Below, piece by piece: positions 49,199 through 51,811 of a stretch of DNA of 64,000 nucleotides (within the stretch, counting starts at the first letter, position 1; the number at the start of each line of letters is the position of its first letter). Source of the stretch: Micrococcus flavus. GTDB lineage: Bacteria; Actinomycetota; Actinomycetes; Actinomycetales; Micrococcaceae. Both the position numbers and the translations under genes were made by a program. The notes under the pieces are model-generated. The model searched no databases and was not told the origin of the DNA. It was given only the letters and a program-made list of their open reading frames with translations. Location: positions 1,116,001 to 1,180,000 of the forward strand of contig NZ_JACHMC010000001.1 of assembly GCF_014204815.1 (NCBI RefSeq), in the 5' to 3' direction.

Positions 49199-50455
49199 TC
49201 AGACCGTCGGCCCGTCCTGGGCCACAATCTTCTGCGAGACACCGGCGGCGTCCGCGTCGCGCAGGTCCGCCAGGCGCGCCTCGTGGGCCTGGCGGATGAT
49301 CGCCGACCACCGATCCTTGTGATCGATCAGCTGGTCATGCCACTTGCCGTCCACGCGCTCGGCGCGGCGGATCCACTCGTCCATCAGGGCGGCGGCCTTC
49401 TCGCGCTCGGCCGGGGTGGCGGCGTCGTCGAGCTCGGTGTAGCGGTGGGAGTACTTCTCCGCGTTCTGCAGGGCGCGCAGCGCCTGTCCCTTGGGCGAGG
49501 CGAGCGAGGCGATCACGGTGAGCACGAGGATGCCGACCACCACGAGGAGGGACAGGGTGGTGGGGATCTCCGTGACGGGGACGGGCTGCCCGTCGTTGAT
49601 GAAGCCGAGGGTGTTCTCGTGGAGGGCGTGCAGCACCAGCTTGACGCCGATGAACGCGAGGATCGCGGCGAGGCCGTAGGAGAGGTACACGAGGCGGTCC
49701 AGCAGGCCGTCGATGAGGAAGAACAGCTGGCGCAGGCCCATGAGGGAGAAGGCGGTGGCCGCAAACACGATGTACGGCTCCTGGGTGACGCCGTAGATCG
49801 CCGGGATGGAGTCGAACGCGAAGAGGATGTCCGTCAGGCCGATCGCGATCATCACGAGCAGCATCGGCGTCATGACCTTCTTCCCGTTCTCCACGGTGAA
49901 GAGGCGGTCGCCGTCGTAGTGGTCCGAGGCGGGCAGGAACCTCTTCACGAAGCGGACCATGACGTTGTCCGCCTCCTCCTCTGCCTCGTCCGCGTCGCCC
50001 ATCTCGCTCTTGAGCTGCAGGCCCGCGATCACGATCAGGGCGATGCCGAAGAGGTAGAAGACCCAGGAGAACGCGGAGATGGCCGCCGCGCCGATGAGGA
50101 TGAACACGGTGCGCGAGATGATCGCGAAGGTGATGCCGAACAGCAGCACCTTCTGCTGGTAGTCCCGCGGCACTCCGAAGCTGGCCATGATCACCAGGAA
50201 CACGAAGAGGTTGTCGACGCTGAGCGCCTTCTCGAGGATGTAGCCGGTGTAGTACTCGACGGCGTGCTGGGTGTCCCCGAAGAGGAAGAACACGAGGCCG
50301 AAGGCCAGGGCCAGTGCGATGTAGATCCCGGACCACACCGCCGCCTCGCGGATGGTGGGGGTGTGCGCCTTGCGCACGTGGGCGAAGTAGTCGAAGGCGA
50401 GGAGGCCGACGATCAGCGCGATCGTCAGGCCCCAGGTCAATCCGTTGATCTCCAC
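49199..50455 (-). CDS. TerC/Alx family membrane protein
   Basis: This 418-residue protein has the TerC domain of about nine membrane helices (LTIALIVGLLAFDYFA, AAVWSGIYIALALAFGLVFFL, SVDNLFVFLVIMASF, KVLLFGITFAIISRTVFIL, SWVFYLFGIALIVIAG and others). The conserved acidic patches YILEKALSVDNLFVF and LTDILFAFDSIPAIYGVTQEP are metal-binding in the family and are intact. After the last helix there is a charged C-terminal domain of about 90 residues with helical Ala/Glu/Arg content. TerC/Alx proteins export or balance manganese and help metallate secreted proteins. The 5' leader holds a probable yybP-ykoY element, so Mn control is likely. ATG 50455 gives MEINGLTWGL. Confidence 0.92.
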   Translation of the reverse strand: MEINGLTWGLTIALIVGLLAFDYFAHVRKAHTPTIREAAVWSGIYIALALAFGLVFFLFGDTQHAVEYYTGYILEKALSVDNLFVFLVIMASFGVPRDYQQKVLLFGITFAIISRTVFILIGAAAISAFSWVFYLFGIALIVIAGLQLKSEMGDADEAEEEADNVMVRFVKRFLPASDHYDGDRLFTVENGKKVMTPMLLVMIAIGLTDILFAFDSIPAIYGVTQEPYIVFAATAFSLMGLRQLFFLIDGLLDRLVYLSYGLAAILAFIGVKLVLHALHENTLGFINDGQPVPVTEIPTTLSLLVVVGILVLTVIASLASPKGQALRALQNAEKYSHRYTELDDAATPAEREKAAALMDEWIRRAERVDGKWHDQLIDHKDRWSAIIRQAHEARLADLRDADAAGVSQKIVAQDGPTV

Positions 50456-50473
50456 GCGGGGAGCACCTTTCGG

Positions 50474-50616
50474 GAGGGGACTCGGTCAATGCTCGCAAGT
50501 CTCTCCGCCCCGCCCCGGCATGACCGACGGCGTGGGCCGCTGCGTCCGGCGGACGGGGCCGACGACCGGCCGCGCCGTCCACGTGGTGACGTCCGCAGTG
50601 TTCTGGATACTCCCCT
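50474..50616 (-). ncRNA. Probable yybP-ykoY manganese riboswitch upstream of TerC gene
   Basis: The minus-strand leader opens with GGGGAGTA (50608-50615) and soon has CTGCGGACGTCA (50587-50598), both resembling the conserved loops of the yybP-ykoY aptamer. It closes with TGACCGAGTCCCC, whose TCCCC can pair with GGGGA as the base stem, and GGTCA/TGACC also pair inside. A -10 box (TAGAGT, 50628-50633) places the 5' end near 50621. The aptamer lies before a TerC gene, the classic target (ykoY of B. subtilis, alx of E. coli). The assignment rests on remembered consensus elements, not a covariance model. Confidence 0.62.
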
Positions 50617-50627
50617 ACGACAGGATG

Positions 50628-50633
50628 ACTCTA
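50628..50633 (-). promoter_or_regulatory. -10 box of riboswitch-TerC transcript
   Basis: TAGAGT on the minus strand, 12 bases upstream of GGGGAGTA; transcription would begin near 50621, giving a leader of about 165 bases. Confidence 0.45.
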
Positions 50634-50693: not shown

Positions 50694-51733
50694 TCAGCGG
50701 TCGTCGCGGCGCGCGGCGTCGGACACCTGGCGCATGCGCTCCGCGGACTCGGCGCGCGGCACGTCGCCCTCGTGGGCGGCCTTGCCCCAGAGCAGGGAGG
50801 CCACCGTGGCCACCACGAGCGTGCCGACGATGACGCCGAGGGAGAGGAAGGTGGAGATCTCGGGCACGGGAACGGGCTGGCCGCCGTTGATGAACGGCAG
50901 CTCGTTCTCATGCAGCGCATGCAGGATGAGTTTGACACCGATGAACGCCAGGATGAACGCGAGGCCGTGCTTGAGGTACACGAGGCGGTCCATCAGCCCG
51001 CCGAGCAGGAAGTAGAGCTGGCGCAGGCCCATGAGGGCGAAGATGTTGGCCGTCAGGACGATGAACCCGTTCTGGGTGAGGCCGAAGATCGCCGGGATGG
51101 AGTCCACCGCGAACATGACGTCCGTCAGTCCGATCGTGATGAACACGACCACCATGGGGGTGAACATGCGCTTGCCGTTCACCGTGGTGCGCAGCTTGTT
51201 GCCGTCGTAGTCCTCCGCCACGTTGAGGCGGCGGGTCAGCTTGGCGACCAGGCCGGGCTCGGCCTCCTCGCCGTCGTCGTCGTCCTTGAGCTGGTGCCAC
51301 GCGGTCCAGAGCAGGAACGCGCCGAAGATGTAGAACACCCAGGTGAGATGCTCGATGGCGACGGCGCCGATCGCGATGAAGACTACCCGCGCGATGAGGG
51401 CGATGATGATGCCCACCATCAAGACCTCCTGCTGGTACCGGCGCGGCACCTGGAACTCGGCCATGATGATGAGGAACACGAACAGGTTGTCCACCGAGAG
51501 GCTGTACTCCGTGACCCAGCCCGCCAGGAACTCGGTGCCGTGCTGGACGTCTCCCAGGACGAACAGCAGGCCCGCGAAGATCAGCGCCAGGGTGACGTAG
51601 AAGCCGATCCAGAGTCCGGCCTCCTTACGGAGGGCTCGTGCGGGCGCTTGACCACGTACAGCAGGTCGAAGAGCAGGATCAGGCCGAGGACCACGAGGGT
51701 GGTGGTTTGGAAGGCGGGACTGAGGACATCCAT
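50694..51733 (-). pseudogene. TerC/Alx family membrane protein, frame broken near the N-terminus
   Basis: A second TerC gene, but interrupted. From ATG 51733 the reading gives a good first helix (MDVLSPAFQTTTLVVLGLIL, then LLFDLLYVVKRPHEPS) and then a stop at 51581-51583. The TerC body continues in another frame from about 51625 (RKEAGLWIGFYVTLALIFAG) to the stop at 50694. Adding one base in 51624-51635 (CCTTACGGAGGG) would rejoin them to about 346 residues, aligned with the first TerC (HTPTIREAAVW against HEPSRKEAGLW). The acidic motifs (SVDNLFVFLIIMAEF and DVMFAVDSIPAIFGLTQ) are intact. It is therefore either a recent pseudogene or a sequencing slip. The two TerC copies are tandem and similar in their helices but differ in C-termini. 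Confidence 0.8.
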
Positions 51734-51811
51734 CGGGGCGTGGCCTCTCGTGGCAGGGACGCGTCATGGTACCTCGCAGGGCCTCGCCCGCCGTGCGGCC
51801 CCGTGGCCGGA

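Follow-up and report, generated by a model that had tools for sequence, protein, structure and literature searches.

The window (the whole stretch of Micrococcus flavus DNA that we analyzed, 64,000 nucleotides long) contains two TerC genes with a leader of about 165 nucleotides between them on the minus strand, ahead of the TerC gene that starts with GTG. The product of this gene is 95% identical to TerC of M. lacusdianchii. We consider the leader, which lies upstream of the intact TerC gene on the minus strand, a candidate Mn riboswitch of the yybP-ykoY type (Table 1). A frameshift near 51620-51660 divides the second TerC gene (50694-51757, minus strand), placing the first ~46 residues in one frame and the remainder in another; the copy in a relative (L032) is intact, and the split gene may be a pseudogene or the product of a sequencing error. 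An initial annotation of this DNA had stated that the neighboring second TerC gene has no such leader, and this holds in the window, as the covariance model R1, which was built from eight Micrococcus leaders, has one match in the 64 kb at E ≤ 0.01.

Table 1. Positions of the leader elements and of the TerC gene in the window
Feature	Position	Strand	Basis
-10 box TAGAGT	50628-50633	minus	TAnnnT conservation
Aptamer domain, P1 to P1	50494-50619	minus	models R1 and R2, covariation
P1 5' strand CGTAGG	50614-50619	minus	RNAalifold, covariation
L1 5' strand GGAGTA	50608-50613	minus	GGGAGTA in 68/68; role per PMC6754395
GGGGAGTATC, the strand with L1 in the putative OFF pairing	50606-50615	minus	10 bp, -19.4 kcal/mol, 0/200 shuffles
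P1.2 5' strand TCC	50605-50607	minus	RNAalifold, covariation
P3.1 5' strand CTGCG	50594-50598, continued by CG 50590-50591	minus	five pairs, all with two-sided change in relatives
L3 loop TCACCAC	50583-50589	minus	third base A in 68/68
P3.2 base 5' strand GTGG	50579-50582	minus	RNAalifold, covariation
P3.2 base 3' strand CCGC	50549-50552	minus	RNAalifold, covariation
P3.1 3' strand CGCAG	50540-50544, preceded by CG 50547-50548	minus	covariation
P4 base 5' strand GCCC	50534-50537	minus	four pairs, all with two-sided change in relatives
P4 base 3' strand GGGC	50507-50510	minus	covariation
P1.2 3' strand GGA	50504-50506	minus	RNAalifold, covariation
L1 3' strand GAGA	50500-50503	minus	AGAGAC in 68/68
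P1 3' strand CTTGCG	50494-50499	minus	RNAalifold, covariation
Shine-Dalgarno-like GAAAGG	50466-50471	minus	
GGTGCTCCCC adjacent to the start codon, pairing with 50606-50615 and overlapping the Shine-Dalgarno by two bases	50458-50467	minus	calculated pairing
TerC-family gene, 418 aa, GTG start	49199-50455	minus	PF03741, E 4.2e-47

TerC is present in 11 of 11 genomes of the genus. Alignment A1 consisted of eight distinct Micrococcus leaders, leaving out the window itself (L021), a leader containing Ns (L022), and one identical to another (L027, the same as L026). These eight leaders share a core for which RNAalifold, without a supplied structure, returned P1 (CGUAGG/CUUGCG), P1.2 (UCC/GGA), P3.1, P3.2, and P4. 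The fold in the window has three arms, as it does in relatives, and a P2 arm is absent both there and from the 68 family sequences described below. The conserved 3' side of the element (GGAGAGACTTGCG / GGAGAGACUUGCG, 50494-50506) forms P1 (CGTAGG/CTTGCG) and P1.2 (TCC/GGA), with GAGACTTGCG (50494-50503) as the 3' closing strand. We confirmed on the minus strand two of the motifs on which the initial annotation had relied, GGGGAGTA (50608-50615) and CTGCGGACGTCA (50587-50598), both of which are largely invariant among relatives. A third, TGACCGAGTCCCC, is indeed present on the minus strand (50476-50488), but its proposed role as the closing strand did not stand. It falls beyond the conserved block, and the genus leaders compared do not preserve it; we therefore ruled out a closing stem made of GGGGA/TCCCC and GGTCA/TGACC. 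Folding of the single leader gave a z-score of -1.87 with 8 of 200 shuffles as good, which is a modest gain over shuffled sequences, so that the strength of the case comes from comparison. Covariation within the genus was thin, with two-sided change in 3 of 24 pairs, a number that 227 of 500 shuffles also reached.

Comparison across the family was more informative. At E ≤ 10, R1 had matches in 174 of 197 family genomes, and these cover 31 of 32 genera; 6 of the 174 are weaker than 1e-3 as read from the results table. We examined 68 sequences, comprising the window, 27 of 30 loci from this R1 search, and 40 fetched regions, after dropping L038 (the window) and L045 and L050 (judged by equal scores to be copies of L044 and L049). 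A TerC match lay within 1,400 nucleotides downstream in all 68 examined family R1 matches. About half of these TerC matches start at query residue 1 with 57-100% identity; the others, at ~46-53% identity from a later residue, may represent a paralogue. One element from a genus genome (L052 of G154), which was added only after A1, stands ahead of a TerC gene 52% identical to that of the window, and no close copy of the window TerC was found in that genome.

In alignment A2 of the 68 sequences, which was fitted to the model and hence leans towards it, 98.0% of cells pair, and two-sided change is seen in 15 of 24 pairs (153 cells). None of 500 shuffles matched this covariation, and when the partner was shifted by 1 to 3 columns as a control, 35-51% remained paired. 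The structure-free MAFFT alignment A3, which we compared with A2 for conserved blocks, displayed the same ones. The P1.2 pairs are almost invariant over the 68 sequences and thus add little to the support for the fold. These findings establish a conserved, covarying fold linked to TerC. A chance resemblance in G+C-rich DNA without any functional RNA would be in keeping with the modest single-sequence fold and with the lack of an Rfam match described below, but the covariation, the TerC linkage, and the recovery of the E. coli alx element by our family model reduce this explanation to a negligible probability.

The whole 64-kb window contains no Rfam family at the gathering cut-off. RF00080 was not among the four Rfam matches at E ≤ 10 in a 301-nucleotide stretch searched for the leader, and an RF00080 search of the strain's own genome found nothing. 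The initial annotation had put forward a search with RF00080 as a check on the leader and held that the absence of a match, combined with the absence of compensatory changes, would speak against a riboswitch. The leader indeed has no RF00080 match, as likewise is the case for alx, and compensatory changes are present, on both sides of the 15 pairs noted above. The E. coli alx riboswitch (locus L254, 3371-3502) has no match to RF00080 of Rfam 15 at E ≤ 10. Because RF00080 misses this accepted member, its silence on the window leader means little and its score does not define the family; we dropped it as a judge of membership. RF00080 scored the E. coli mntP riboswitch at 41.6 bits in a 440-nucleotide stretch, below the cut-off of 45. 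Among the 197 family genomes, 0 exceeded the cut-off and 55 had weak matches at E ≤ 10, none of which sits at the window leader. We inspected four weak matches (L001, L002, L005, and L006), all of which have an L1 of the GTAGCTCC type. The sub-threshold matches in L001, L005, and L006 (around 1501) are upstream of VIT-family (PF01988) metal transporter genes, and these elements look like the mntP type; the gene downstream of the L002 match has no Pfam match. L165 precedes a GDT1 gene.

In contrast to RF00080, a covariance model built from family leaders only (R2) did find the E. coli alx element, with 35.4 bits and an E value of 3.2e-6 over 81 loci. Searched against the 7-kb alx locus alone, R2 gave an E value of 6.8e-8 for this element, which was the only match there. 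R1 also detected alx in the 7 kb, though only at 14.3 bits and E 0.0081, and the R2 search did not match the E. coli mntP riboswitch. According to PMC9603457, alx is a Mn-regulated member of the yybP-ykoY family, and Alx is described as a TerC homologue in PMC10550928. The recovery of alx by R2 is the strongest of our tests and establishes homology of the window element to alx.

The letters of the Mn site are also conserved. GGGAGUA and AGAGAC are kept in 68 of 68 sequences including the window, giving an L1 of GGGGAGUA with an opposite GAGA strand. A leg of P1, L1, and P1.2 and a leg of P3.1, L3, and P3.2 are both present in the window, as returned by RNAalifold without a supplied structure and supported by covariation. 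L3 has seven bases, the third of which is A in 68 of 68 sequences, and reads TCACCAC in the window. The reference loops are ACA48UACU in X. oryzae and UCA41AUUC in L. lactis, in which that A gives its N7 to Mn, as set out in PMC6754395. By its place in the loop, A at 50587 corresponds to this Mn-binding A48 or A41. The same conserved fold might instead sense another metal or pH, as Mn is a predicted ligand for the window leader and, according to PMC9603457, alkaline pH elicits a response from the mntP and alx riboswitches of E. coli as well. However, none of the 68 sequences departs from the Mn-site letters, among them the adenine at the third position of L3, and all examined family matches precede TerC, which PMC10550928 links to Mn; we regard a ligand other than Mn as very improbable. 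The naming of the leader as a Mn riboswitch of the yybP-ykoY family in the initial annotation is thus supported by covariation and by the finding of alx with the family model, and the leader very likely belongs to the Mn-sensing yybP-ykoY riboswitches, with Mn binding predicted from sequence.

Among known systems, E. coli alx is the closest in architecture to the window element in that it has three arms, an L1 of GGGGAGUA, a seven-base L3 with A in third place, and a GUGAGACC strand, and it precedes a TerC homologue as the window element precedes TerC. Unlike the window element, alx has a longer P4, other letters in P1.2, and a differing leader after the aptamer, and its R2 score is only 35.4 bits. 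E. coli mntP shares with the window element its family (RF00080, 41.6 bits), an L1 of GGGGAGUAG, and GAGACC, but it has four arms, an L3 of the ACAUACU type, and the gene mntP rather than TerC downstream, and R2 misses it. Crystal structures display a four-way junction with a P2 arm, whereas the window element has no P2 arm. We considered the missing P2 arm as a sign of a new variant and ruled this out, since alx is also three-armed; with three arms in alx and four in mntP, the P2 arm does not define the family. Judged by its letters and predicted arms, the window element is of the three-arm alx type. In actinobacteria, the leader of C. glutamicum cg2157 (terC) was listed as RF00080 in 2013, scoring 49.13 bits with the Rfam model then in use, and its 5' end coincides with an RNA-seq start (PMC3890552); by this listing it is an actinobacterial terC leader like that of the window. 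Neither the kind of riboswitch nor its position before an actinobacterial terC is new. Our literature search, which was mostly without subscription papers, returned no title on a Mn riboswitch of Micrococcus or Micrococcaceae.

A -10 box just upstream of the aptamer, as noted in the initial annotation, is backed by conservation in relatives. Of 68 family leaders, all 68 have TAnnnT within 25 nucleotides upstream of P1, compared with 3 of 68 for a control stretch further upstream. In 66 of 68 leaders it is 7 to 10 nucleotides before P1, so that the mRNA probably begins with the aptamer, transcription probably starting just before P1. A consensus promoter scan of the leader, in which a -35 box was also required, found no promoter and no -35 box.

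We found no terminator in a scan of the leader, and the start codon is 38 nucleotides beyond the aptamer, which together suggest control of translation. We infer Mn binding, control at translation, and the ON direction, and propose the following model. Transcription would begin just before P1, and Mn2+ would bind at the L1/L3 docking site via A at 50587. Bound Mn2+ would lock P1 and L1, and this locking would free the ribosome-binding site, allowing TerC to be translated at high Mn. Without Mn, the L1 strand GGGGAGUAUC would mask the start region by pairing with the adjacent GGUGCUCCCC. Stabilization of P1.1 by Mn is described for X. oryzae in PMC6754395, and we assume the same step for the window leader. 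For the reading as a whole, a three-arm yybP-ykoY Mn riboswitch that stands before TerC and lets it be translated at high Mn, we estimate a probability of roughly 0.88.

Calculation establishes an alternative pairing in the window, as L1 pairs with the ribosome-binding site in 97% of the computed ligand-free ensemble. What this pairing occupies is chiefly the spacer adjacent to the start codon. It was reached by 0 of 200 shuffles in 3 of 8 genus leaders and had p < 0.05 in 12 of 64 leaders, the Shine-Dalgarno and pairing calculations being made on the 64 leaders with a TerC match that begins at residue 1. By a six-base measure, the window Shine-Dalgarno scored 0.55 with P1 and 0.68 without, indicating that P1 does not open it. 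Computed P1 was near zero without ligand in 8 of 8 genus leaders, which leaves the calculation silent on the ON state. Because P1 does not open the window Shine-Dalgarno and the L1 pairing occurs in few leaders, we consider a translational ON switch with Mn reasonably probable, and we propose only tentatively, at slightly under even odds, that the modeled L1 pairing may be the real OFF state in this strain.

We also considered pairing of the P1 3' strand with the Shine-Dalgarno as the window's own switch, and this candidate is unsupported within the family, though strong outside it. Complementarity in 40 family leaders averaged -6.13 for a leader's own partners, -5.42 for swapped partners, and -5.98 for shuffled ones, and forcing P1 in these leaders opened the Shine-Dalgarno in 12 and closed it in 14. 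In 24 order- and class-level leaders, the mean was -14.1 kcal/mol versus -6.58 for shuffled Shine-Dalgarno regions, and pairings outside the family reach 9 bp, e.g., CCUCCGGUA with UACCGGAGG. Swapping partners among the 24 leaders still gave -12.23, so that most of this fit is common to the group and not specific to a leader. Forcing P1 in the 24 leaders opened the Shine-Dalgarno in 20 and closed it in 3. These data bear on whether the Mn riboswitch might act on transcription, e.g., through Rho or pausing, instead of translation. Within the family, the Shine-Dalgarno calculation does not favor translation; however, the leader lacks an intrinsic terminator, and the 24 leaders pair the P1 3' strand with the Shine-Dalgarno, which P1 opens in 20 of them, leaving action on transcription unlikely.

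Elements of this kind extend beyond the family. With R2 at E ≤ 0.01, matches occurred in 140 of 297 genomes sampled at the order level and in 98 of 296 sampled at the class level, with both samples including some family genomes. From the 55 order- and class-level loci L108-L162 we checked 38, of which 36 have TerC downstream; the two loci lacking it were L132, in which the contig ends 24 nucleotides on, and L159. Approached from the gene, the best 80 of 546 TerC loci included 30 with an R2 match just upstream by our own count, and among these best 80 there was no Nocardia, Mycobacterium, or Kribbella locus with an upstream R2 match. RF00080 of Rfam 15 matched 11 of 296 class-level genomes at E ≤ 0.01, in a sample drawn in the same manner as that for R2, a count that may be low since these searches used fast first filters that lose weak matches (of 14 named genomes, 3 were positive in the RF00080 control). 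The current RF00080 model leaves a gap, with 0 of 296 class-level genomes over the cut-off versus 98 of 296 for R2 at E ≤ 0.01, and an absent Rfam match should therefore not be read as an absent Mn riboswitch.

Our findings offer a concrete, testable candidate for Mn control of TerC in Micrococcus and its relatives, which fits a role of TerC in metal handling. It is possible, although we hold this more loosely than the proposed OFF state, that actinomycetes possess a widespread three-arm, alx-type Mn riboswitch before TerC that the current Rfam model overlooks and whose output end has been rewired between lineages, with the P1 3' strand serving as an anti-Shine-Dalgarno outside the Micrococcaceae and L1 pairing with the ribosome-binding site in this Micrococcus. 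If such rewiring is true, the ligand-binding strand L1 would double as the switching strand in this Micrococcus.

Some individual loci depart from the common arrangement. In L159, the R2 match (1501-1610) has an L1 of GGGGAGTAGTCC, and the next long open reading frame has no Pfam match. Two loci carry two copies of the element each, at 128-250 and 1348-1475 in L189 and at 1341-1447 and 3213-3322 in L242, and these paired copies perhaps stand before two TerC genes.
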